From Bacillota bacterium (GTDB taxonomy: Bacteria > Bacillota > Dethiobacteria > SKNC01), in contig SKNC01000059.1 in the NCBI GenBank assembly GCA_007120745.1, forward strand, positions 1 to 37,031: 37,031 bases of DNA, given 5' to 3'. Of the stretch, positions 5,539-34,249 are shown piece by piece. The notes under the pieces were generated by a model. That model was not told the DNA's origin and searched no databases. It worked only from the letters and a program-made list of their open reading frames with translations. A program made the position numbers and the translations under genes. Position 1 is the stretch's first letter, and every line of letters begins with the position of its first letter.

Positions 5539-6762
5539 GTGACAAAAAAAAATATTGTAGTTAGCATGGATATTGGCACTTCAAATATTAGAGTTATTGT
5601 AGGAGAGGTAACACCAGACCATACTTTAAACATCATAGGTGTAGGCACCAGTCCTTCCGGAGGTCTTCGTAAAGGAACCATTGTGGACCTGGATAAAACG
5701 GTACAGAATATAAACGAAGCGGTTTCTGAAGCGGAACGAATGGTAAACATGGAAGTTAATTCTGTTTTTTTAGGGATGGTGGGTACTCACATTACCTTGA
5801 TTAACAACCGTGGAATAGTGGCTGTTGCCGGAGAGGACAAGGAGATTACCATAGAGGATGTGGAAAGGGTTATTCAGGCATCCCGGGTGATTGCCATGCC
5901 CCCTGACCGGGAGATTATTGATATTATCCCACGGCAGTTCATTGTAGATGGTTACGATGGAATTCGGGATCCGGTGGGAATGGTAGGGGTAAGGTTGGAA
6001 GTGGATGCGATGATTATTACCGGAGCCGTTACTTCTATCCGGAATTTGATGCGATGTGTAAATCGTGCTGAACTGGAAGTAGACGGTGTTGTGCTGAATT
6101 GTATGGCCAATGCCGAAGTTTTATTATCTGAGGACCAAAAAGAACTGGGGGTAGCCTTGATTGATATTGGAGGCGGCACCACGGAAGTAGCCATGTTTCA
6201 GCAGAATGCCTTAAAAGATATTTCCGTCCTTCCCATGGGAGGCGACCACATTACCAATGACCTGGCCGTAGGGCTTCGCACCACCATTGAGCAGGCTGAA
6301 AAGCTGAAAGTGGAGCACGGCAAAGCATTGGTTTCCATGGTAGAGTCTCAGGAGGATATAGAAATTACCAGTGTAGGGGGGAAAGAAAACCGCAAGGTAA
6401 ATGAGAAGGTTCTTTGTGGTATTATAGAGCCCAGAGTTCAGGAGATATTACTTCTTGCCAGGGAAGAACTGGAAAAAATGGGCCATTTGAAATCTCTGCC
6501 GGCAGGCGTTGTATTGACTGGTGGAGCTTCTTTGATGGGAGGAGTTACGGAGATGGCAGAGGAGATTTTTGAATCTCCCGTCCAGCTGGCTCAACCGGAT
6601 TACATTGGGGTCAGCAGTCCTGTGTTTTCTACCGGTGTAGGAATTATTCACTATGTTGATAGGAATCAGTTGATTCCTATGGGTGGGAAAAAAGAAACAA
6701 AACTGGCGCTGCCCAGGTTTTTCGGGCGGGTCAAAAACTGGTTTTATGAAATCTTTGACTAA
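5539..6762 (+). CDS. ftsA: Cell division protein FtsA
   Basis: VVSMDIGTSNIRVIVGE, VALIDIGGGTTEVAMF, GVVLTGGASLMGGV; adjacent to ftsZ; GTG start. Confidence 0.96.
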   Translation: MTKKNIVVSMDIGTSNIRVIVGEVTPDHTLNIIGVGTSPSGGLRKGTIVDLDKTVQNINEAVSEAERMVNMEVNSVFLGMVGTHITLINNRGIVAVAGEDKEITIEDVERVIQASRVIAMPPDREIIDIIPRQFIVDGYDGIRDPVGMVGVRLEVDAMIITGAVTSIRNLMRCVNRAELEVDGVVLNCMANAEVLLSEDQKELGVALIDIGGGTTEVAMFQQNALKDISVLPMGGDHITNDLAVGLRTTIEQAEKLKVEHGKALVSMVESQEDIEITSVGGKENRKVNEKVLCGIIEPRVQEILLLAREELEKMGHLKSLPAGVVLTGGASLMGGVTEMAEEIFESPVQLAQPDYIGVSSPVFSTGVGIIHYVDRNQLIPMGGKKETKLALPRFFGRVKNWFYEIFD

Positions 6763-11476: not shown

Positions 11477-11950
11477 GTGAAATGCCTGTTCTGCGGGTTT
11501 TTGGAAAGTAAAGTAGTAGATTCCCGGTCCACTGACGAGGGTTCGGCCATACGACGCCGGAGAGAATGTACGGAATGCGGCAGGCGCTTTACCACCTATG
11601 AAAAAATGGATGATGTTCCCCTGGTGGTAATTAAGTCAGATGGCAGGCGGGAGGTTTTTGACCGCAACAAAATTATTCGCGGACTTCTTACAGCGGGGGT
11701 CAAGCGGCAGATTGAACTGCAGACTTTCGAAGAACTGGTAGACGACATAGAGAGGGAGCTGAGAAACCGCTTTATACAGGAAATACAGTCTAATCAGCTG
11801 GGGAAAATGGTTTTAGAAAGACTTCTGGCACTGGATGAAGTGGCGTACGTGCGGTTTGCCTCCGTCTACCGAAAGTTTCAGGACATACAGTCCTTTAAAA
11901 ACGAACTGGACCATCTTTTTGATATAAAAAACAAACCTGTAAGGAAGTGA
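11477..11950 (+). CDS. nrdR: Transcriptional repressor NrdR
   Basis: MKCLFCGFLESKVVDSRSTDEGSAIRRRRECTECGRRFTTYE zinc ribbon plus ATP-cone. GTG 11477 is likely the true start (GGGGGG RBS 6 nt upstream); the track start is 11447. Confidence 0.95.
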   Translation: MKCLFCGFLESKVVDSRSTDEGSAIRRRRECTECGRRFTTYEKMDDVPLVVIKSDGRREVFDRNKIIRGLLTAGVKRQIELQTFEELVDDIERELRNRFIQEIQSNQLGKMVLERLLALDEVAYVRFASVYRKFQDIQSFKNELDHLFDIKNKPVRK

Positions 11951-14900
11951 TTATCATTTTTGAACTGACCACTGAAAAACAAACGGAAAAAAGTACGGCG
12001 GTAATTTTTGAGGAGATTCGGAAAAGAGACGGCAGGGTTGTTCCCTTTGACAGACAGAAGATTACCGAAGCTATTTTCAAGGCTGCCAAAGCCGTTGGGG
12101 GTGAAGACAGAAATATTGCAGAAATACTTACGGGTCAGGTGATCGAGTACCTGAGAAGAAGCAACCAGGACATCATTCCCACCGTGGAGGGCACTCAAGA
12201 TGCGGTGGAAAAAATTCTCATAGAAAATGGACATGCCCGTACCGCCAAAGCGTATATCCTTTACCGTTCCCGCCGGACCCGTATGCGGGAAGGGAAAACT
12301 GAATTAATGGATGCGGTGAAGGAAATCCTGGTGGAAACCAGCCGGGAAAATGCCAATATTAGCAACTCTCCCTCTGCCAAGATGCTGCAGATAGCCATGG
12401 CAGCCAGCAAGAACTACTACCTGTGCAATCTGCTTCCCGAGGACTCTGCAGAGGCTCACCGGGAGGCATCCATACATATTCATGACCTGGATTACTATGC
12501 CAAAACTTTAAACTGCCTGCAGATTGATTTAAAGAACCTCCTGCATGAGGGTTTTCATACCGGGAATGGTTGGATTCGCCCACCTCAGCGGGTTTACTCT
12601 GCTGCGGCCCTGGCTGCTATTATTCTTCAAAGCAATCAGAATGACATGTACGGTGGACAGAGTTTTCCACACTTTGACCGGGATATGGGAGAGGTAGTCC
12701 GAAGCTTCAAACATCAGCCCGATGAGGAGGAAACCTTTCAGGCCATGGAAGGGCTGATATATAACCTGAATACCATGCATTCCCTTAGCGGCAGCGAAAG
12801 AATCTGGGTCTATGATAAAAAGACAAAACGCTTTTCTACACGGAGCATGGAAGAATTTGATGAAAACTTTGAAGAGGGACGGTATCAAGCTTTCAGCTTA
12901 AACTATGACACAGGAGAAACAGAACTTAAAGATATTACCGCCTCTATAAAACATAAAAATGCTAATAAATTATACTCTGTAAAGCTTAAATCAGGTCAAA
13001 AAGTGACGGTAACAGATAATCATTCAGTAATGACAATAAATGATAATGGTGAAATTAATACAGCTGTACCTTCTGATTTAAAAAGAGCCCTGATGCCCCG
13101 GGAGCTTAACCTGAAAAAAGAAGAAATGTTTTTTGATTTAACCAGCTACCCTCACTCCAGCAAGTATGGCATGGATACTTTAGAGCTTACTCCTTCCTTA
13201 GCCAAATTAATGGGAATGTATACGGCCGAAGGCTCGGTGGATGGTTCTACCCTTTATCTGGCTTTATTTGATAAAGAGCTGGAAGAAGAAGCAATAGAGC
13301 TTTTAAATGAAATCAACTCTGATTTCACCGTTCGTTTAAGAATAGCAAAAGGAAAGCCCAGAGATCTTGCCTGCAATGTTGGTCAGCAGTTTGCGGCCTT
13401 TTTAGGGGATAAGTGTGGACGAGGTGCTGCAAATAAAAGGGTTCCTGATGAGATATTCTTTGCAGAAGAAATGTTAGTGAAATCATTTTTAGACGGATAT
13501 TTTTCAGGCGATGGTTATGTAGGGAATAACCGAATCGCAGCCACGTCTGTTTCTAAAGTGCTGAGGGATGGAATTCAGCTTTTACTTATAAAGTTAGGTA
13601 AACCTGTATCCATTCGCCAGGCAGTTCCTCAAAGCCAATTTGCTGCGGCAAATAAACGATATTTAGTTGCTGTTGGGGGGTATTACAGCAAAGACCTTTC
13701 TCTCAGCAGTTATAAAAAAGAAAAGCTTGAAGAATGTAATTCTCAAAGTGAGCAGACTCCTTATGATTACGAATATCTTCGTCCTATAATTAAAGATGTC
13801 TATGGTATACACTGCAAAAATGCAAAAAACTTTCGCTTAAAACCGGACTATCTTCAGGAGATTATCGAAGATCTGACAAGTCGTATACTGGAAAAAGAGG
13901 AACAAGAACTATTTAACAATATGACAAAAAAACAATTTTGGATGGATCAATTAGTTGATGTTCTGCCGCAGATTAAAACTACGGAAAGGTATCATCTACT
14001 TAAAAAGCTTAATAATGAAGAACTTCCTAGATTTAGTAAGTATTTACCTGTTTTTAATCCATATAAAGATATGTTAAAGCGTTTCTATCTCTCAGAGACG
14101 GTAGATGATAAAACAGGCAGCAGGATTGACAACAACTGCCAGAGTCCAGGCTTAGTTATGGAGTGGGCAAAAATTATTCTTAAGCAGAATGAAAAAATGG
14201 CTTCATTGCTAAAAACTTTATGTCGGGCAGTGAAGGTCTGGCCGTTACAGGTAGGGCAGCTGATTGATGAGCCTCATGAAGAATATGTGTATGATATTTC
14301 TGTTGCTGATAATGAAAACTTTTTAACGTCGGAAGGGATTTTTGTCCATAATTCTCGGGCTGGTGCTCAAGTCCCCTTCAGCAGCATAAATTTTGGAACG
14401 GATACTACTGATGAAGGACGGATGATTACCCGGGCCCTGCTTCAGGCTTTTGATAAGGGGTTGGGACGGGGAGAAAATCCGGTATTCCCCAACCTGGTGT
14501 TCAGGGTTAAAGAGGGGGTTAACTTTGAACCGGAGGACCCAAATTATGACCTGTTTCAGCTGGCTTTGAAAGTGGCTTCTCACCGGCTCAATCCTACATT
14601 CAGCTTTATGGACGCTTCCTTTAACCAAAAATACGGCGAAGAGGTTTCTTACATGGGATGCCGTACCCGGACCATAGCTAACCGGCACGGTGAGGAACTC
14701 TCCGCAGGGAGGGGCAACATTGCATCAGCCTCCATTAATCTGCCCCGACTGGCCCTGACTGCTAAGGAGCCTAAAGCCTTCTTTGAGGGATTGGACAAAA
14801 CCTTAAGGCTCTGCGTGCGTCAGCTCCTGCACCGTTTTGAAGTATTGAGCGAACTCAAAATGAAAGACCTGCCTTTTTTGATGGGGCAGAAGCTTTACAT

Positions 14901-15606
14901 GGGTTCTGAAACCCTGGAATGCAATGAGCCCATTCGAGAGATTATAAAAAACGGCACTCTGTCTATCGGCTTCATCGGCCTGGCAGAAGCACTGCTTGCT
15001 CTGGTAAATTCACATCATGGGGACAGTGAAGAAGCTCGTCAGCTGGGCCTCAGTATTGTAGAGCATATGTGGAAGCGGACTCAGCAGTACTGCGAAGAAT
15101 ACGACCTGAACTTTGCTTTATATGCTACTCCTGCTGAGGGACTGTCGGGGCGTTTTATCAATGCTGACCGCAAGCGTTTCGGGGTGCTTCCCGGAATTAC
15201 TGATAAGGAGTACTATACCAATTCTTATCACCTTCCGGTGAACTACCTGACTTCTCTTTTTGAGAAGATAAAGATTGAAGGCGAGTACCACAGTTATTGT
15301 AACGGCGGACATATATCATATGTGGAACTCGCCTCTCCCCCCCGGGATAACACGGCAGCTATTGAAAAAATTATCAGGCATATGGCCGCCAGCAACCTGG
15401 GTTACGGCGGAATCAATTATCCCATAGATGAATGTATCGCCTGCTGTTATTCGGGACTGATTCCTGAGGCCTGTCCCCAGTGCGGGGGAACGGAAATCCG
15501 CCGGATTCGCAGAATTACCGGCTACCTTTCTACGGAGGACCGGTTTAATTCGGCAAAACAGGCGGAACTCAGGGACCGAAGATCCCATATATATAACCAG
15601 TTTTAG
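11947..15606 (+). CDS. nrdD: Anaerobic ribonucleoside-triphosphate reductase NrdD, intein-containing precursor
   Basis: ATP-cone N-terminus, class III RNR motifs (GEEVSYMGCRTRTIANRHGEE, RGNIASASINLPRLAL), C-terminal RITGYLSTEDRFNSAKQAELRDR glycyl-radical region. GTGA overlap with the nrdR stop. Confidence 0.95.
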   Translation: MIIIFELTTEKQTEKSTAVIFEEIRKRDGRVVPFDRQKITEAIFKAAKAVGGEDRNIAEILTGQVIEYLRRSNQDIIPTVEGTQDAVEKILIENGHARTAKAYILYRSRRTRMREGKTELMDAVKEILVETSRENANISNSPSAKMLQIAMAASKNYYLCNLLPEDSAEAHREASIHIHDLDYYAKTLNCLQIDLKNLLHEGFHTGNGWIRPPQRVYSAAALAAIILQSNQNDMYGGQSFPHFDRDMGEVVRSFKHQPDEEETFQAMEGLIYNLNTMHSLSGSERIWVYDKKTKRFSTRSMEEFDENFEEGRYQAFSLNYDTGETELKDITASIKHKNANKLYSVKLKSGQKVTVTDNHSVMTINDNGEINTAVPSDLKRALMPRELNLKKEEMFFDLTSYPHSSKYGMDTLELTPSLAKLMGMYTAEGSVDGSTLYLALFDKELEEEAIELLNEINSDFTVRLRIAKGKPRDLACNVGQQFAAFLGDKCGRGAANKRVPDEIFFAEEMLVKSFLDGYFSGDGYVGNNRIAATSVSKVLRDGIQLLLIKLGKPVSIRQAVPQSQFAAANKRYLVAVGGYYSKDLSLSSYKKEKLEECNSQSEQTPYDYEYLRPIIKDVYGIHCKNAKNFRLKPDYLQEIIEDLTSRILEKEEQELFNNMTKKQFWMDQLVDVLPQIKTTERYHLLKKLNNEELPRFSKYLPVFNPYKDMLKRFYLSETVDDKTGSRIDNNCQSPGLVMEWAKIILKQNEKMASLLKTLCRAVKVWPLQVGQLIDEPHEEYVYDISVADNENFLTSEGIFVHNSRAGAQVPFSSINFGTDTTDEGRMITRALLQAFDKGLGRGENPVFPNLVFRVKEGVNFEPEDPNYDLFQLALKVASHRLNPTFSFMDASFNQKYGEEVSYMGCRTRTIANRHGEELSAGRGNIASASINLPRLALTAKEPKAFFEGLDKTLRLCVRQLLHRFEVLSELKMKDLPFLMGQKLYMGSETLECNEPIREIIKNGTLSIGFIGLAEALLALVNSHHGDSEEARQLGLSIVEHMWKRTQQYCEEYDLNFALYATPAEGLSGRFINADRKRFGVLPGITDKEYYTNSYHLPVNYLTSLFEKIKIEGEYHSYCNGGHISYVELASPPRDNTAAIEKIIRHMAASNLGYGGINYPIDECIACCYSGLIPEACPQCGGTEIRRIRRITGYLSTEDRFNSAKQAELRDRRSHIYNQF
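12781..14352 (+). mobile_element. In-frame intein (524 aa) with LAGLIDADG homing endonuclease in NrdD
   Basis: Extein junction NLNTMH|S...VHN|SRAGAQVPFSS. Ser1; block B-like VTVTDNHSVMT; two dodecapeptide-like motifs LMGMYTAEGSV and FLDGYFSGDGYV; block F/G YVYDISVADNENFLTSEGIFVHN. Confidence 0.95.
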
Positions 15607-20989: not shown

Positions 20990-21222
20990 AATTATCGTGA
21001 GCACCAAGAAAATAAATGGAAATTGATTTCGGCCGGTATGGTTTTCCTGGTTTCACAAATAATAGTTGTAAGAATCAGTATAAGATAAAAAAACGCACAG
21101 AGGGCAATCAACAACCGCTATCCTTTAAGAAGTTATAATAAATGATAAAAGGCATTTCAATGGGATTGGTTCTATAGTATAATACCCATAAGGGGTATTG
21201 TGGCGAAAGGAGTTGATATTCT

Positions 21223-21483
21223 ATGTTGGAAGTAACTGAAAAGGCTGCGGTAGAACTGAAAAAGTACCTTAAGGAAGATGGCCAGTTCGTTCGTATATAT
21301 ATAAGCGGTGTCGGTTGAGGAGGCTCAGTCCAATACGGCATGTCTCTGGAAGAGGCAAAAAAAGAAGACGATTATGAAATTAACGTGGATGATGTTTCCA
21401 TCATTTTGGACCGCGGGGCCTATGAGAAACTGGAGCGTCAGAAACTGGACTATATTAATGGATTGACCATTACCTCTAAGTAA
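21223..21483 (+). CDS. HesB/IscA-like protein with in-frame TGA (21316-21318), probable selenoprotein
   Basis: Read through TGA: MLEVTEKAAVELKKYLKEDGQFVRIYISGVG[U]GGSVQYGMSLEEAKKEDDYEINVDDVSIILDRGAYEKLERQKLDYINGLTITSK. Upstream and downstream parts share one frame and both fit the family; RBS AAAGGAG. Confidence 0.85.
21324..21354 (+). promoter_or_regulatory. Putative bacterial SECIS stem-loop just downstream of the UGA
   Basis: CUC-ag-UCCA-au-AC-GGCAU-GU-cuc-UGGA-a-GAG. Apical loop starts with GG, 18 nt after the UGA. Apical stem is weak. Confidence 0.4.
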
Positions 21484-21551: not shown

Positions 21552-21579
21552 GACAGACATGGTGTCTGTCTTATTTTTT
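21552..21579 (+). terminator. Rho-independent terminator after the HesB-like gene
   Basis: GACAGACA-tgg-TGTCTGTC-TTATTTTTTT. Confidence 0.8.
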
Positions 21580-21835: not shown

Positions 21836-22252
21836 ATGCAGATTACCCGACAGACGGAATATGCGGTTAGAACCATGGTTGAACTGGCCAGCATTCCTTA
21901 CGGTGAGCTGTTGAGCACCCGCATGATTTCCAAACATCAAAAAATCCCCGAAGTTTTTTTAAAGAAGACGATTCAACTTTTGGCCAGGGCCGGTCTGGTG
22001 CAGACTCGAAGAGGCAGTCACGGGGGAGTTCGTTTGATTGTTCCTCCGGATAAAATTACCCTGGCGGATATTTTAACAGCGGTAGAAGGGGAAGTGGCAC
22101 TGAATGTCTGCCTGAGGGAAAGGGATATCTGTCCTAACCAACCTGTATGTAAGGTCAGGCATATTTTGCGGAGATCACAGGAAACGCTGGTAAGGGAACT
22201 GAGCCGGGAAAGCCTGCTGGATATTGTAACCGGTAAAGTTTTTGATGATTAA
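21836..22252 (+). CDS. Rrf2 family transcriptional regulator with Fe-S-type cysteine cluster
   Basis: MQITRQTEYAVRTMVELAS, RRGSHGGVRLIVPPDKITLADILTAVEG, CLRERDICPNQPVC. Confidence 0.93.
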   Translation: MQITRQTEYAVRTMVELASIPYGELLSTRMISKHQKIPEVFLKKTIQLLARAGLVQTRRGSHGGVRLIVPPDKITLADILTAVEGEVALNVCLRERDICPNQPVCKVRHILRRSQETLVRELSRESLLDIVTGKVFDD

Positions 22253-22307
22253 TTGGACTAAAGTTAACAAATATGAAATTTATAAAATGAAAGGGAGAGG
22301 ATTATTC

Positions 22308-23939
22308 ATGTTTTGCAATCAATGTGAACAAACCGCCAAAGGTACAGGATGCACCGTATCCGGAGTTTGCGGTAAAAAACCGGAGGTAGCGGCTCTGCAG
22401 GACCTTCTTATCACTTTTGTCAAAGGACTTTCACTTTATGCTCATGAAGGGCGAAAAAAGGGTGTGGAGGACCAGGAAGTGAACCGCTTTACCACGGAAG
22501 CGCTGTTTACAACCCTTACCAACGTAAATTTTGACGCGGAAAGATTCCAGGCTTACATTCACCGTTGTGCTGAATTAACTAAACGCATACAGGAAAAAAC
22601 AGCTGATGCCGGAGGAAATACAGATTTTATGGGACCTGAAGCGGACCTGGTACCAACTGCCGACCTGGATGGATTAATCAAGCAGGGAGAGGAACTGGGG
22701 CTTCCGGTAGACAAAGAGGCCGGTGAGGATATTGAGTCCTTTCAGCGAACTACCCTGTTTGGAATTAAGGGAGTATCGGCTTATGCTTATCATGCTTACC
22801 TGCTGGGGCAGGAGGACCATCGGGTTTATGCTTATATTCACGAAGCCCTTGCTGCCATGGGTGATAAAAATTTAGGGTTAGAGGACTGGATTGGCCTGAC
22901 ACTGAAGTGTGGGGAAATTAATTTGCTCACCATGGAGCTGCTGGATCGAGCCAACACAGAAAAGTATGGTCACCCGGTTCCCACGGAAGTGCCCCTGGGA
23001 CATAAAAAGGGTAAGTGTATGCTGGTTTCCGGACATGACCTGAAAGACCTGGAGGCTTTGTTAAAGCAGACGGAAGGGAAAGGAATTTATATTTACACTC
23101 ATGGAGAGATGCTTCCCACTCATGGTTATCCGGAATTAAAGAAATATGAGCATTTTTATGGGCATTACGGGACGGCCTGGCAGAACCAGAAGAAAGAATT
23201 TGCCCAGTTTCCTGGCTCCATTGTCATGACTACCAACTGCATCCAGAAGCCCCAGGATTCATACTCGGAAAACATTTTTACGGTAGGGCCCGTAGGCTGG
23301 CCTGGAGTCAAACACATTGAAAATGAAGATTTTACACCGGCCATTGAAAAGGCGCTGGAGATGCAGGGGTTTGAAGAGGACCAAGATAAGGGAAGTGTTT
23401 TGGTAGGTTTTGGACACAATGCCGTTCTGGGAGTGGCCGGTAAGGTAATTGAAGCCGTGAAAAATGGGGATATCAAGCATTTCTTCCTGGTGGGGGGATG
23501 TGACGGTGCCAAACCCGGGCGAAGCTATTATACGGAATTTGTAGAAAAGGCTCCGGATAACACTGTTATTTTAACCCTGGCCTGTGGGAAATTCCGCTTC
23601 TTTGATAAGAAACTGGGAGATATCGGGGGAATTCCCAGGCTTCTGGATATGGGCCAGTGCAATGACGCATATTCTGCCATCAAGGTGGCGGTGGCGCTGG
23701 CGGAGGCCTTTGACTGTGGGGTTAATGACCTGCCACTGTCCATGATACTTTCCTGGTATGAGCAGAAGGCCTGTGCCATCCTGCTGACCCTGCTGCATCT
23801 GAATGTTAAGGATATCCGCCTGGGACCCAGCCTTCCCGCCTTTATTACTCCCAACGTGCTGGATGTCCTGGTGAAAAACTTCAATATCCAGCCTATTAAA
23901 ACAGCGGATGAAGACCTGGCCGAAATACTTGCCTGGTAA
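22308..23939 (+). CDS. hcp: Hydroxylamine reductase / hybrid-cluster protein
   Basis: MFCNQCEQTAKGTGCTVSGVCGKKPEVAALQDLL, GGCDGAKPGRSYYTEF, TLACGKFRFF, MGQCNDAYSAIKVA. Start moved from track 22242 to ATG 22308. Confidence 0.97.
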   Translation: MFCNQCEQTAKGTGCTVSGVCGKKPEVAALQDLLITFVKGLSLYAHEGRKKGVEDQEVNRFTTEALFTTLTNVNFDAERFQAYIHRCAELTKRIQEKTADAGGNTDFMGPEADLVPTADLDGLIKQGEELGLPVDKEAGEDIESFQRTTLFGIKGVSAYAYHAYLLGQEDHRVYAYIHEALAAMGDKNLGLEDWIGLTLKCGEINLLTMELLDRANTEKYGHPVPTEVPLGHKKGKCMLVSGHDLKDLEALLKQTEGKGIYIYTHGEMLPTHGYPELKKYEHFYGHYGTAWQNQKKEFAQFPGSIVMTTNCIQKPQDSYSENIFTVGPVGWPGVKHIENEDFTPAIEKALEMQGFEEDQDKGSVLVGFGHNAVLGVAGKVIEAVKNGDIKHFFLVGGCDGAKPGRSYYTEFVEKAPDNTVILTLACGKFRFFDKKLGDIGGIPRLLDMGQCNDAYSAIKVAVALAEAFDCGVNDLPLSMILSWYEQKACAILLTLLHLNVKDIRLGPSLPAFITPNVLDVLVKNFNIQPIKTADEDLAEILAW

Positions 23940-24538: not shown

Positions 24539-25555
24539 TTACAGCTGTGCTTTGAAATGCTCAGAAACCTCTTTCAGCATCCGGTAGGATTTTTCCACGG
24601 TTAGCTCTCCGTCGGGGTTGACGAGGCAGCACCGGGAGGGGGCCAACCAGGCCTGGGAAAGAATCTGCTCCCTGGGAACTCCGGTATTTTCTAGATAGAC
24701 CCACATCTCTTCCAGCTTTTCAATCATGGATTTGACATTTTCCTTTTCATACTCCTCCGTAAGGGTAGGCGTAATGCCCCAGGAGATAATTCCTCCCCGG
24801 TCTAAGAAGTCCTTTACGTCCTCCTTATAGCGGGAAAAAATATGGCCCCAGGTAAAGACATCTGCGGAGAGGATATCCAGGTCCAGCTGAAGGAGGAAAG
24901 ACCAGTCCGGGTTACCGCAGAGATGAACCCCTTTGGGTCCCGGGAAATTTTCCAGGAAGGAACGGTAATCCCTTTGAGCCCGGTCGCTGGCATATCCCGT
25001 AAAGGCTTTAAAAATCATTTCCAGTCCCGGTTCATCTACCCAGACAAAAGAGCCCGGGTGTTTTTCCAGCATATCTTTCAGCTGTACCTCTGTTTTTCGG
25101 GCCACAAAATCAAAGATGATCCCCTTTACCTCCTCATGATAGATCATGGATTTTTTGTTTTCATCCAGGATTTTTAACCCCAGGCTTACCGGTCCAATGT
25201 TTTGTCCCCGGACATATTGATAAGGGGAAAGGTCCATCTCCAGGAACCGGTGAAACAGTACGGAGTATTCCGGTGAAAGGCGGAAAAAATCATCGTTATC
25301 CCAGTTGTTCAATAGATGGTCCAGCTCCCCATAGAATTTTTCCAGGGAAAAACTGATCCGCTGTTTTTCAAAGTCTACGATGATACCGGGAAAATGTTCG
25401 GAAATCTGCACGTACATGTCTTCATAAAAGCTGTACCTGGGCAGCTGCGGCCAGAAAGGAATGTCCAGGGACAAGGATAGTTCCAGGGCCCTTTCTATGT
25501 CGGTATGGGGCATAATTCCCATGGCCGTGGTCTGGCAGTTTCCTGTTAATTTCAT
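24539..25555 (-). CDS. UROD/MetE-like (uroporphyrinogen decarboxylase / cobalamin-independent methionine synthase fold) protein of unknown substrate
   Basis: GNCQTTAMGIMPHTDIERALELSLSLDIPFWPQLPR, FVWVDEPGLEMIF, KGVHLCGNPDW, GIISWGITPT, SRCCLVNPDGE. Confidence 0.8.
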   Translation of the reverse strand: MKLTGNCQTTAMGIMPHTDIERALELSLSLDIPFWPQLPRYSFYEDMYVQISEHFPGIIVDFEKQRISFSLEKFYGELDHLLNNWDNDDFFRLSPEYSVLFHRFLEMDLSPYQYVRGQNIGPVSLGLKILDENKKSMIYHEEVKGIIFDFVARKTEVQLKDMLEKHPGSFVWVDEPGLEMIFKAFTGYASDRAQRDYRSFLENFPGPKGVHLCGNPDWSFLLQLDLDILSADVFTWGHIFSRYKEDVKDFLDRGGIISWGITPTLTEEYEKENVKSMIEKLEEMWVYLENTGVPREQILSQAWLAPSRCCLVNPDGELTVEKSYRMLKEVSEHFKAQL

Positions 25556-25747
25556 GTTTTTTAAGCCTCCTTCATAGTTTGGAATGACTTCTTGAAACAT
25601 GCCAGTGGGGGAGGTTCACTTCAACTCCATCATAACATGAGAACTTTTGAAAAAATGCCTGAAAAACAAATGTTAAGAAAATTTATATAGTATAATGAAA
25701 GAGGAAAACATATAGGGAATTTTTTAAACTTTGAAAGGAGCAATTTT

Positions 25748-26542: not shown

Positions 26543-26696
26543 CTTTTAATTTCAAGAAAAGCATTTAAATTCTCGACTTTTTGAGGTAAGGTGTATTAAA
26601 ATAGTAGTATATGGTATTGAAAAAATCTCTTTGTGGACAGACCTGAGGCTTTTCTGCGAAGGGAAAAATAAAAATCAGCAGCATACAGGGGAAGAT

Positions 26697-28028
26697 ATGA
26701 GAAAAAATCACTTGAAATTAATAAGAGGGGAGAAAAAAGAACGCACTCCCTTTCAAAAGCTATCGAGAAAAATTACGGTAAGTCTGCTTTTGATTATCCT
26801 GGTTTTTTTCCTGGCCCGGGCTGTTTTTTTGTGGGGATATGGTATGGCCGCCTCGTACCTGGTGAGTACTGTTGTTACGGAAGAGAGACTGCTGGAGGAA
26901 AAAATGTCGGTAGAAGGCGTAATTATCAGGGATGAGAAGGTAATTACTTCTCCCCGGGAGGGATATTTGGTTTGGGCCTTAGATGAAGGAACCCGGGTGG
27001 GGGTAGGACGTGTGGTGGCAGAGGTTGTTTCCCAGCCTCCCGTTGATGATGGTATTGAAGGGCCTGTTTTGGAGCATGAAGAGAAGGACATAACAAATAT
27101 GGAAGAAAAAGAATCCCAAGATGAAGGAAATGAAGATGTGGATTCATCCATGTTGGAGGACAGTCCGGACTCTTTATATATAGATGGGGGAAATGAAGAC
27201 GAAACTCTGGACCTGAAAGAAATTGAATACCAGGCATCAGTTATGGTAAACCGGCTCAGAAAAGCGATCCGGGAGGGCAATATGGAGGAGGCCGAAAGTT
27301 ACTATAATCAGCTAGAGAGCCTTTCCCAGGAGCAGTTAATTGTACACAGCAGCCTTCAGGCGGGCAGCAGTAAAATTATTTCCCCATTTTCCGGCATTGT
27401 ATCTTACTATATGGATGGATTGGAAGATTTCTACCAGCCCTCTTTAATTCATTTTTTAAGCAGCCAGCAGTTGAAAGTTTTAAACGAAGAAATCAAAAAA
27501 ATTAGTTTTGGTGAAAAGGTAGGCCGGGGTTCTCCTATTTTTAAAATCGTGGATAACTACACCTGGTATTTTACCGTTCCTGTGACTCCATCCCAGGGAG
27601 AAATACTCCAGGGAGCGAGAAGATTATTTTTACGGTTTGATTTTATATCTCCCCATGACACCAGGGTTGAAGTTTATCACCTGGAGCAGGAAGAGGACAA
27701 AACTCTGGTAACCTTTAAAGTAAATGAACAGTTAGATAATTTTTATCTTCACCGTCAGGCTGGTGCAGAGGTTATTTATGCGCACTTCAGGGGCATAACT
27801 GTACCTGAGGAAGCTCTGGTTGAGCAAGGTGAGGAAATCGGAGTTTACACCATTGAAAAAGCAGTGGTACGTTTTCGTCCCGTTGAGATAAAAAGAGAAC
27901 TGGAGGGAGAACTGGTGGTGGAAGGACTACCTGCAGGAAGAGTTATTATTCAGAATCCCCGGTTTTTCAGGCAGGGACAGTACATTCCTTCTCAACAGGA
28001 GGAACAGGAAAGAGAAGAACAGCTGTGA
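26697..28028 (+). CDS. HlyD-like (membrane-fusion/adaptor) single-pass membrane protein
   Basis: N-terminal TM, biotinyl-lipoyl-like VEGVIIRDEKVITSPREGYLVWALDEGTRVGVGRVVAEV, acidic linker, C-terminal barrel-like segment. Confidence 0.75.
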   Translation: MRKNHLKLIRGEKKERTPFQKLSRKITVSLLLIILVFFLARAVFLWGYGMAASYLVSTVVTEERLLEEKMSVEGVIIRDEKVITSPREGYLVWALDEGTRVGVGRVVAEVVSQPPVDDGIEGPVLEHEEKDITNMEEKESQDEGNEDVDSSMLEDSPDSLYIDGGNEDETLDLKEIEYQASVMVNRLRKAIREGNMEEAESYYNQLESLSQEQLIVHSSLQAGSSKIISPFSGIVSYYMDGLEDFYQPSLIHFLSSQQLKVLNEEIKKISFGEKVGRGSPIFKIVDNYTWYFTVPVTPSQGEILQGARRLFLRFDFISPHDTRVEVYHLEQEEDKTLVTFKVNEQLDNFYLHRQAGAEVIYAHFRGITVPEEALVEQGEEIGVYTIEKAVVRFRPVEIKRELEGELVVEGLPAGRVIIQNPRFFRQGQYIPSQQEEQEREEQL

Positions 28029-28046: not shown

Positions 28047-28721
28047 ATGGAGCTGTTGAATCAAAATTATATGAAAATTATAGAACGAATAAATAAAGCT
28101 AAGGAGAAGTCCGGCAGGCAGAAGGATGAAATTAAACTGATTGCCGTAACCAAGGGGATTCGTTCAAAAGCAATAAAGAAGGCTGCTTCCCTGGGAATCG
28201 TTCATTTTGGAGAAAATCGGGTGCAGGAGGTCCTTCCGAAGATGGAGGGCCTTCCAGAACATCTTAAGTGGCACTTTATTGGCCACCTGCAGAGCAATAA
28301 GGTGAAAGACGTACTTCCCCGTTTTTCTCTAATCCACTCTCTTGATAGAATCTCCCTGGCAAAAGAAATAAACAAGCGTTCAGAAAAAGAAAACCGGGTG
28401 ACTGATGTCCTGGTTCAAGTAAACGTGGCAAAAGAAAAGTCGAAATTTGGTCTTTCTGTTCAAGAAACAGAAGGATTTATTGAGAAGGTTGTAGAAAAAT
28501 TTCCATATATAAAAATTTTGGGATTGATGACCATTGCCCCTTATGTGGAGGATGCCCAGGAGGTCAGGCCCATATTTCGGGAATTAAGAAACCTGGCCCA
28601 GGAAATTGTGATTCCCGGGGCGGAGCTAACAGAGCTCTCCATGGGAATGAGCAATGATTTTGAAGTTGCCGTAGAAGAAGGGGCCACTATGGTCAGAATT
28701 GGGTCAGCTCTTTTCAGGTGA
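28047..28721 (+). CDS. ylmE: YggS family pyridoxal-phosphate homeostasis protein (YlmE)
   Basis: IKLIAVTKGI, HFGENRVQEVLPKMEGLPEHLKWHFIGHLQSNKVKDVL, ELSMGMSNDFEVAVEEGATMVRIGSALF. Confidence 0.95.
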   Translation: MELLNQNYMKIIERINKAKEKSGRQKDEIKLIAVTKGIRSKAIKKAASLGIVHFGENRVQEVLPKMEGLPEHLKWHFIGHLQSNKVKDVLPRFSLIHSLDRISLAKEINKRSEKENRVTDVLVQVNVAKEKSKFGLSVQETEGFIEKVVEKFPYIKILGLMTIAPYVEDAQEVRPIFRELRNLAQEIVIPGAELTELSMGMSNDFEVAVEEGATMVRIGSALFR

Positions 28722-31079: not shown

Positions 31080-31159
31080 GATGGATGTCTTCCAATGTGA
31101 TTGTTGACATTTATAAAAAAAATGTTATATTAGTAATAATGAATATCTAGAACAATTCG

Positions 31160-31405
31160 ATGAACGGGTCCAGTACGCAGGATATTTCTGTTCAGAGAGC
31201 CAGGGAAGCTGAAAACTGGCCTTTAATACCTGCCGAATATCTCCCGGGAGTGCTGTGCGAAATTCTTGTGAAGAGTAGACACATGAAGAGTAGACACAGC
31301 CGGTGGTGCCGTTACCGCCTGTGACCCCATGCAGTCATTTATTTTTTATGCTATCCAGGGTGGTACAGCGGGAATAATTCCCGTCCCTACAGGACGGGTT
31401 TTTTT
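31160..31405 (+). promoter_or_regulatory. T-box leader (isoleucine) with antiterminator/terminator upstream of ileS
   Basis: AGTA (31172-31175) in stem I, CCTGCCGAAT-ATC specifier region (ATC 31239-31241), T-box AGGGTGGTACAGCGG (31357-31371), terminator CCCGTCC-ctaca-GGACGGG-TTTTTTT (31380-31405). The 5' limit is approximate. Confidence 0.92.
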
Positions 31406-31441: not shown

Positions 31442-34249
31442 ATGGACTACAAAGAAACATTGAATCTGCCAAAAACAGAGTTTCCCATGCGGGCGAATTT
31501 ACCCAAGAGGGAGCCGGATATCCTGAAATATTGGGAGGACATTAATATTTATGACCTGGTTCAAAAGGCCAGGAAAGGGAAAGAGAAATTTATTCTTCAT
31601 GATGGCCCCCCCTATGCCAATGGGGATATTCATATGGGTACAGCCATGAACAAAGTTTTGAAAGATATTGTGGTGAAGTACAAAACCATGAAGGGGTATG
31701 ACTCACCCTATGTTCCCGGGTGGGATACCCACGGCCTACCCATCGAGCATCAGATTATTAAAACTAAAAAAATTAACAGGCACGAAGTGGGAGACCTGGA
31801 ATTCAGGCAGGAGTGTCATAATTATGCTTTAAAATTTGTGGATATACAGCGGGAACAGTTTATGCGGCTGGGAGTCCGTGGGGACTGGTATAACCCGTAC
31901 CTTACCTTAGCCCCTTCCTTTGAGGCCCGGCAGATTCAGGTGTTTGGAGAAATGGCCAAGAGAGGTTATATCTACAAGGGGCTTAAGCCGGTTTACTGGT
32001 GCACCTGCTGTGAAACAGCTCTGGCTGAGGCGGAAGTAGAATATGACGAGCGAAAATCTCCATCTATTTTCGTTAAATTTCCCGTCATTGAGGATAAAGG
32101 TTTGTTCGAAGAGGGAACAAAAAACCATGTAATAATCTGGACCACTACACCCTGGACACTTCCTGCCAACGTGGCGGTAGCCCTGCATCCGGAATTTGAT
32201 TATGTGCGTATCAAGCTGGAGGATGATCACTATATTATGGCAGAAGGTCTGGCCGCCCGGGTGATGATGGTTTTAGACCGTACCGACTGGGAAGTGGTGG
32301 GACGCTACAAAGGCTCTGACCTTTCCGGATTAAAATATAAGCATGCCCTTTTGAATAAAGAAGGAGTGGTGGTTACCGGGGATCTGGTAACCCTGGAGCA
32401 GGGATCTGGGTGCGTGCACATTGCTCCCGGCCATGGTATGGAGGACTATCAATTAAGCCTGGAATATGACCTTCCCATTGTGGCCCCACTGGACGATAAG
32501 GGGGTTTTCACCGATGAAGCAGAGCAGTTCCAGGGGCTGTCCTATGGGGAAGGAAATAAGGCGGTTACCACGGAATTGAAAGAGAAAAACCTGCTCTTTC
32601 ACCTGGACTTCTTATCCCATCCCTATCCCCACTGCTGGCGCTGTAAGAGGCCGGTGATTTTCCGGGCCACGGAGCAGTGGTTTGCATCTATTGAAGGCTT
32701 TAGAGAAGCCGCTTTGAATGCAATTAAAGAGGTACATTGGATTCCCTCCTGGGGAGAAGAAAGAATCAGCAAAATGGTGGGAGAGCGCCATGACTGGTGT
32801 ATTTCTCGTCAGCGGGTCTGGGGAGTTCCTATTCCCATATTCTACTGCACCCAATGCAATAAAGAGCTGATTAATGATGATACCATCAAGGCTGTTCAGG
32901 ACTTGTTTGCCAGAGAAGGTTCTGATGCCTGGTTTAAGAAAACTGCGGAGGAAATATTACCGCCGGGGATTCAATGCAGCGACTGCAGCGGATCCGGATT
33001 CCGGAAGGAAACAGATATTATGGATGTGTGGTTTGACTCCGGGTCCACCCACGCTGCGGTCTGTGATGCCAGGGAAGAGCTGGGATGGCCGGTAGATTTA
33101 TACCTGGAGGGAAGCGACCAGTATAGAGGGTGGTTTCAGTCCTCTCTATTAACCTCGGTGGCAACCCGGGGGAGAGCTCCTTATCGTTCAGTTCTGACCC
33201 ACGGCTGGGTAGTGGACGGAGAAGGGAAAAAGATGTCCAAATCCGTAGGAAATGTAATTGCCCCCAAAGAAATTATAAAAAATTACGGTGCTGATATTTT
33301 GAGGCTGTGGGTCTCCTCATCAGACTTTAGAGGAGATGTCAGGGTTTCTCCTAATATACTGCAGCAGCTGTCGGAGGTTTACCGAAAAATTCGCAATACC
33401 GCAAGATACATGCTGGGCAACTGCCAGGACTTTCATCGTAAGAGAGACCAGGTGGAGTATGATAAACTTTGGGAAATTGACCGCTGGGCCCTGCACAGGC
33501 TTCAGGAGCTGGTGGAAACCGTTACCCGGGCGTATGAGAAGTACGAATTTCACCAGGTATTTCATGCCATTCATAATTTCTGTGTCATTGATATGAGCAA
33601 TTTTTATCTGGATGTTCTGAAAGACAGGCTGTATGTATTTCCCGCCGGGGACAAGAGCCGCAGAGCTGCTCAAACGGTCATGTATAAGATTTTGACTTCC
33701 CTGGTTATCATGACTGCTCCCATACTGACCTTTACGGCGGAGGAAATATGGAAGCTTTTGCCTGAAAAAGAAGAGGGTGCGGAAAAGTCGGTACAGCTTG
33801 CTTCCTGGCCCAAAGTAAATGAAAGCTGCCTGGATGAACGTCTGAAGGAAAAATGGGATGAAATACTGGAGGTGCGGGATGAGGTTTCCAAAGCCCTGGA
33901 GGAGGCCAGAAGAAGAAAAGTGATATCCGGCTCTCTAGGGGCGGCGGTAGATATTTATCCAGCTGAAAAAGTATATGAACTGCTGAAAGAATATGAGGAG
34001 CAGCTGCCCATGATATTTATCGTATCCCAGGTAAACCTGCATTCTCCTACGGACCTGGTCATGGAAGGAGCGTACGCCAGTACCACTATTAAGGACCTGA
34101 AAGTTGGCGTGAGCCAGGCCCGGGGCGGAAAATGTGAAAGATGCTGGAACATCAGTGAAACCGTAGGCTCTTACCGGGAAAACCCGGAAATATGCCACCG
34201 CTGTTATTCTGTAGTAAAGGAACTGGATGTTCCTCTTTCTGCCGATTAA
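31442..34249 (+). CDS. ileS: Isoleucyl-tRNA synthetase
   Basis: HDGPPYANGDIHMGTAMNKVLKD (HIGH-type), GWDTHGLPIEHQ, KMSKSVGN, C-terminal CERCWN...CHRCY zinc site. Confidence 0.98.
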   Translation: MDYKETLNLPKTEFPMRANLPKREPDILKYWEDINIYDLVQKARKGKEKFILHDGPPYANGDIHMGTAMNKVLKDIVVKYKTMKGYDSPYVPGWDTHGLPIEHQIIKTKKINRHEVGDLEFRQECHNYALKFVDIQREQFMRLGVRGDWYNPYLTLAPSFEARQIQVFGEMAKRGYIYKGLKPVYWCTCCETALAEAEVEYDERKSPSIFVKFPVIEDKGLFEEGTKNHVIIWTTTPWTLPANVAVALHPEFDYVRIKLEDDHYIMAEGLAARVMMVLDRTDWEVVGRYKGSDLSGLKYKHALLNKEGVVVTGDLVTLEQGSGCVHIAPGHGMEDYQLSLEYDLPIVAPLDDKGVFTDEAEQFQGLSYGEGNKAVTTELKEKNLLFHLDFLSHPYPHCWRCKRPVIFRATEQWFASIEGFREAALNAIKEVHWIPSWGEERISKMVGERHDWCISRQRVWGVPIPIFYCTQCNKELINDDTIKAVQDLFAREGSDAWFKKTAEEILPPGIQCSDCSGSGFRKETDIMDVWFDSGSTHAAVCDAREELGWPVDLYLEGSDQYRGWFQSSLLTSVATRGRAPYRSVLTHGWVVDGEGKKMSKSVGNVIAPKEIIKNYGADILRLWVSSSDFRGDVRVSPNILQQLSEVYRKIRNTARYMLGNCQDFHRKRDQVEYDKLWEIDRWALHRLQELVETVTRAYEKYEFHQVFHAIHNFCVIDMSNFYLDVLKDRLYVFPAGDKSRRAAQTVMYKILTSLVIMTAPILTFTAEEIWKLLPEKEEGAEKSVQLASWPKVNESCLDERLKEKWDEILEVRDEVSKALEEARRRKVISGSLGAAVDIYPAEKVYELLKEYEEQLPMIFIVSQVNLHSPTDLVMEGAYASTTIKDLKVGVSQARGGKCERCWNISETVGSYRENPEICHRCYSVVKELDVPLSAD

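Follow-up and report, generated by a model that had tools for sequence, protein, structure and literature searches.

The analyzed window is a stretch of 37,031 nucleotides from a Bacillota bacterium (positions 1 to 37,031 of contig SKNC01000059.1, assembly GCA_007120745.1); the assembly has a size of 1.44 Mb in 137 contigs and is 90% complete. On the forward strand of the window, a single reading frame extends from an ATG at position 21223 to a TAA at 21481–21483, with a TGA in codon 32 (21316–21318) as its sole interruption. If this TGA is read as selenocysteine (Sec, residue U32), the gene (21223–21483) codes for a Sec-containing protein of the A-type (HesB/IscA-like) superfamily with a length of 86 residues. 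A sequence-only reading of the window had described the frame as open except for codon 32, preceded by a good ribosome binding site and followed by a terminator. All three features were found again: a Shine-Dalgarno-like AAAGGAG motif (21206–21212, forward strand) is located 10 nt upstream of the ATG, and a strong hairpin resembling an intrinsic terminator, with a T run behind it, lies at 21552–21570 on the same strand. The promoter proposed in that reading is weaker than stated, since the -10-like hexamer TATAAT exists (21178–21183, forward strand) but a promoter scan found no acceptable -35 partner for it.

The gene is followed on the same strand by genes of a regulator of the Rrf2 family that has three Cys residues close together (21836–22252) and a hybrid-cluster protein/hydroxylamine reductase (Hcp; 22242–23939), both of which are also neighbors of the homologous gene in the genus mate G002. 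The other loci examined lack the Rrf2-Hcp pair in their 1.5-kb flanks, which makes this neighborhood genus-level evidence only; it weakly suggests a role related to Fe-S or nitrosative stress. Other parts of the window contain an anaerobic ribonucleotide reductase gene (NRDD; 11947–15606) split by a LAGLIDADG-containing intein, a T-box leader (Rfam; 31151–31391) located 5' of the isoleucyl-tRNA synthetase gene (31442–34249), and on the reverse strand an open reading frame of 353 amino acids (24539–25600) without matches in Pfam and NCBIfam.

The read-through product matched the Pfam family PF01521 above the gathering score (33.1 bits compared to 26.3; E = 7e-8), and NCBIfam IscA/HesB models matched it on either side of the TGA, in agreement with the family fit that had been noticed earlier for both halves of the frame. 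In the AlphaFold model of the protein (mean pLDDT 90), which superimposes on Escherichia coli IscA and SufA with TM scores of 0.77–0.83, the A-type fold is retained. The two curated models for HesB-like selenoproteins scored below their cut-offs (TIGR01911, 24.8 bits compared to 66.35; NF038090, 49.5 bits compared to 85).

A search of 60 related genomes yielded matches in 35 of them, and each match contained exactly one TGA apart from one 27-residue fragment. A fragment of this length at G001:C162:15722-15805 shares 96% identity with the window protein's C-terminus and possibly overlaps the end of contig C75. When the TGA was read as Sec in the 30 loci that were fetched, it fell into one alignment column and was mostly flanked by the residues GVG-U-GG. 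In a sample of 250 genomes from the phylum, 70 matches were obtained, 45 with a TGA and 25 without; two of the TGA-containing matches additionally list a TAA, and none had a TAA or TAG without a TGA. Cys homologs from other phyla carry a Cys exactly at the U32 column, which corresponds to the first ligand of A-type carriers and is where the sequence-only reading had placed the TGA. The alignment of U and C columns proposed in that reading thus bore out the assignment, and these comparisons show that selection maintains the UGA where A-type carriers have the first Cys ligand of the cluster. A genome-wide reassignment of TGA in the lineage, to Trp, Gly, or Cys, would also place a TGA within a coding frame, but is so improbable as to be negligible, because TGA is the stop codon of a MurG-like (1158–2261), an HlyD-like (26631–28028), and an alanine-racemase-like gene (28047–28721) in the window and in-frame TGA codons occupied Sec positions in the genes examined (hesB, selD, and fdhA).

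The sequence-only reading had also suggested a search for a SECIS element downstream of the TGA. A SECIS-type hairpin with a 7-bp stem (TGTCTCT/AGAGGCA) and the apical loop GGA (21348–21350) is located at 21341–21357 on the forward strand, starting 22 nt past the TGA with its loop 29 nt past it. The rules of the bSECIS model as quoted in PMC13188914 concern stem length, loop length, a loop G, spacing, and a minimum free energy of -7.5 kcal/mol or lower. The hairpin agrees with the first four of these, and the folding energy amounted to -11.8 kcal/mol for a 54-nt window and -7.1 kcal/mol for the bare hairpin. Since 12% of synonymous shuffles of the 54-nt window and 3% of those of the hairpin alone folded equally well, folding energy alone separates the hairpin poorly from shuffled sequences, and the case rests on comparison. 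Among the compared relatives, which are not phylogenetically independent, 43 of 44 distinct Sec (TGA) homologs preserve all five core pairs, as opposed to 1 of 30 homologs in a Cys comparison set consisting mainly of Proteobacteria. The third base of codon 41, a fourfold-degenerate position inside the hairpin, is a T in all 44 Sec homologs but in only 2 of 19 Cys homologs. One stem pair shows compensatory changes (A-U, G-U, G-C, U-A, and U-G), and the observed covariation was seldom attained by shuffled controls. The comparison shows that the RNA hairpin, with its loop 29 nt downstream of the UGA, is also under selection, and the conservation of the frame, of the TGA position, and of the hairpin across many genomes goes far beyond chance. 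An interpretation as a pseudogene, or of the TGA as a sequencing or assembly error, could draw on the in-frame TGA itself and on the sel genes missing from the organism's own assembly (see below), but is extremely unlikely given that the same TGA occurs in 30 of 30 independently assembled relatives and that both halves of the protein remain under selection at the protein level and the hairpin is kept.

SelB, bound to a bSECIS hairpin, brings Sec-tRNA(Sec) (selC) to the UGA, and SelA together with SelD makes Sec. The genes selA, selB, selC, and selD were all undetected in the window's own assembly at its 90% completeness. Matches to tRNA-Sec in this genome were below the cut-off and were rejected; the loci of this genome checked by ARAGORN carry genes for tRNA-Ser and tRNA-Arg. 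Its matches to the SelB model were read as other translation GTPases, judging from frame length and partial profile coverage. Among the 60 relatives, SelB-level matches were present in 58, SelA matches in 58, and SelD matches in nearly all, and selD of the relatives is itself a TGA-containing gene. ARAGORN placed a tRNA-Sec near selA in four of the scanned sel loci, and these four include those of both genus mates, G001 and G002. In these two genomes the genes are arranged collinearly as selC-selA-selB-lysR-folE, with lysR and folE identified by their translated sequences rather than by family search. Contig C125 of the window's own genome starts at position 6654 of the corresponding G001 contig, between the end of lysR (6482) and the start of folE (6888), and runs on through the fol genes. 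Because C125 thus begins between lysR and folE of a collinear sel cluster, the sel operon is expected just past the contig end.

The same genome also encodes a full-length formate dehydrogenase (FdhA) with one canonical Sec-TGA at U124 (motif CARLUHAPT) and, downstream of it, a hairpin whose loop reads GGUCU. FlpD (PF02662), searched for as a further Sec gene, was absent from this genome, and the copies of the relatives lack a TGA. Taken together, the prevalence of SelB in the relatives, the collinear genus mates, the break at C125, and the genome's own Sec-containing FdhA indicate that the absence of the sel genes is most likely an assembly gap caused by a contig break at the locus. The sequence-only reading had named a genome without selABCD as a finding that would speak against it; this is literally what the 90% complete assembly contains, but the contig break explains it. 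The missing genes would also be in line with a loss of Sec decoding by the organism that left the gene as a recent relic. This explanation is very unlikely, although less so than a pseudogene or sequencing error, since the assembly is incomplete and fragmented into 137 contigs, one of which starts next to the sel operon position of both genus mates, since FdhA retains its intact Sec-TGA and SECIS-type hairpin, and since the window protein is free of decay.

The conserved TGA and hairpin, the TGA stops, and the organism's own FdhA thus speak against all four alternatives (pseudogene, sequencing error, TGA reassignment, and lost Sec decoding), which were rejected. Sec decoding is supported by the location of the TGA at the ligand-Cys column (30/30 relatives), the conserved hairpin (43/44), the Sec machinery that nearly all relatives possess, and FdhA, and the earlier view that this is a real Sec gene rather than a pseudogene is upheld. 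From the sequence data, TGA codon 32 is almost certainly decoded as Sec, and there is a high probability that the apparently stop-broken gene is a working selenoprotein gene of the HesB/IscA (A-type) superfamily.

A catalogue of 2006 includes HesB-like selenoproteins (PMC1794560), whose motif is UxGP (PMC13188914). Like the members of this group (TIGR01911, NF038090; PMC1794560, PMC13188914), the window protein combines an A-type domain, Sec at the first ligand-Cys position, and a subsequent bSECIS; unlike them, it has no Cys-rich tail, scores below both model cut-offs, and reads UGGS instead of UxGP, with UGGP in most homologs. The precedent invoked by the sequence-only reading therefore holds for the kind of protein, whereas the fit to the described subfamily is poor. 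With the IscA/SufA/ErpA carriers the protein shares the fold and the first ligand position, but it has Sec in place of Cys, and the C-terminal ligand Cys pair (CxC) of three-Cys A-type carriers is gone. The window protein contains no Cys at all, and neither do those of its three closest relatives (G001, G002, and G003). Most other Sec homologs keep 1–4 Cys downstream of Sec, L139 being one further homolog without Cys after Sec. As the A-type site consists of the first Cys and the C-terminal Cys pair (PMC7144353), this clade keeps the Sec position alone. A second Sec-containing HesB paralog of the genus mate G002 (L167; G002:C1:1961273-1961518) has its TGA at the same position and an intact hairpin, but differs from the window protein by a KUGVP motif and one terminal Cys and represents a distinct subgroup, resembling the sole copy in G004. 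The protein thus belongs to a known kind of selenoprotein, of which it is a divergent variant with Sec alone, and is not a new system; what is new is that it and its three closest relatives are Cys-free and lack both the CxC ligands and UxGP, and that the window protein scores below both curated cut-offs.

Since no other Cys is available, Sec32 would either be shared across subunits or serve as a lone nucleophile, and the protein would not be a classical three-Cys carrier. In the former case, the selenolate of U32 may stand in for the thiolate ligand of A-type carriers, and iron, an Fe-S cluster, or another soft metal could be held via Sec32 of two or more subunits. Alternatively, Sec32 might act as a lone nucleophile, which the data do not separate from metal or cluster binding. 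A metal or cluster role of the window protein, somewhat less likely than not, can be proposed tentatively; two of the three canonical ligands are missing, which speaks against it. It is rather unlikely, although conceivable, that the clade in which Sec is the sole thiol or selenol residue forms an all-selenolate metal or Fe-S site across a dimer or tetramer without any Cys ligand. There is nearly an even chance that the Sec is real but belongs to a selenoprotein that works in redox chemistry or binds a metal(loid) and has nothing to do with the delivery of Fe-S clusters. The loss of the cluster-completing CxC tail, with zero Cys left, is consistent with such a function, as is the HesB-like selenoprotein of the archaeon Methanococcus maripaludis, which was identified by mutagenesis and 75Se labeling and has no known function (PMC11097638). 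That protein is an A-type relative in which Sec has been demonstrated, but it uses the archaeal Sec system. On the other hand, the retained A-type fold and ligand position and the Fe-S-related neighbors Rrf2 and Hcp argue for a link to Fe-S clusters, and a resolving Cys for dithiol-type redox chemistry is lacking.

Whichever role applies, a clade of genuine members escapes the curated models for Sec-containing HesB proteins, and a sel operon missing from an incomplete metagenome-assembled genome is not by itself a reason to dismiss Sec decoding. About 20 years after HesB-like selenoproteins became known, their function is still described as unclear in recent papers. In a protein whose site is reduced to one Sec and that contains no Cys, any activity of the purified protein, be it metal binding, alkylation, or redox chemistry, could be assigned to Sec unambiguously.
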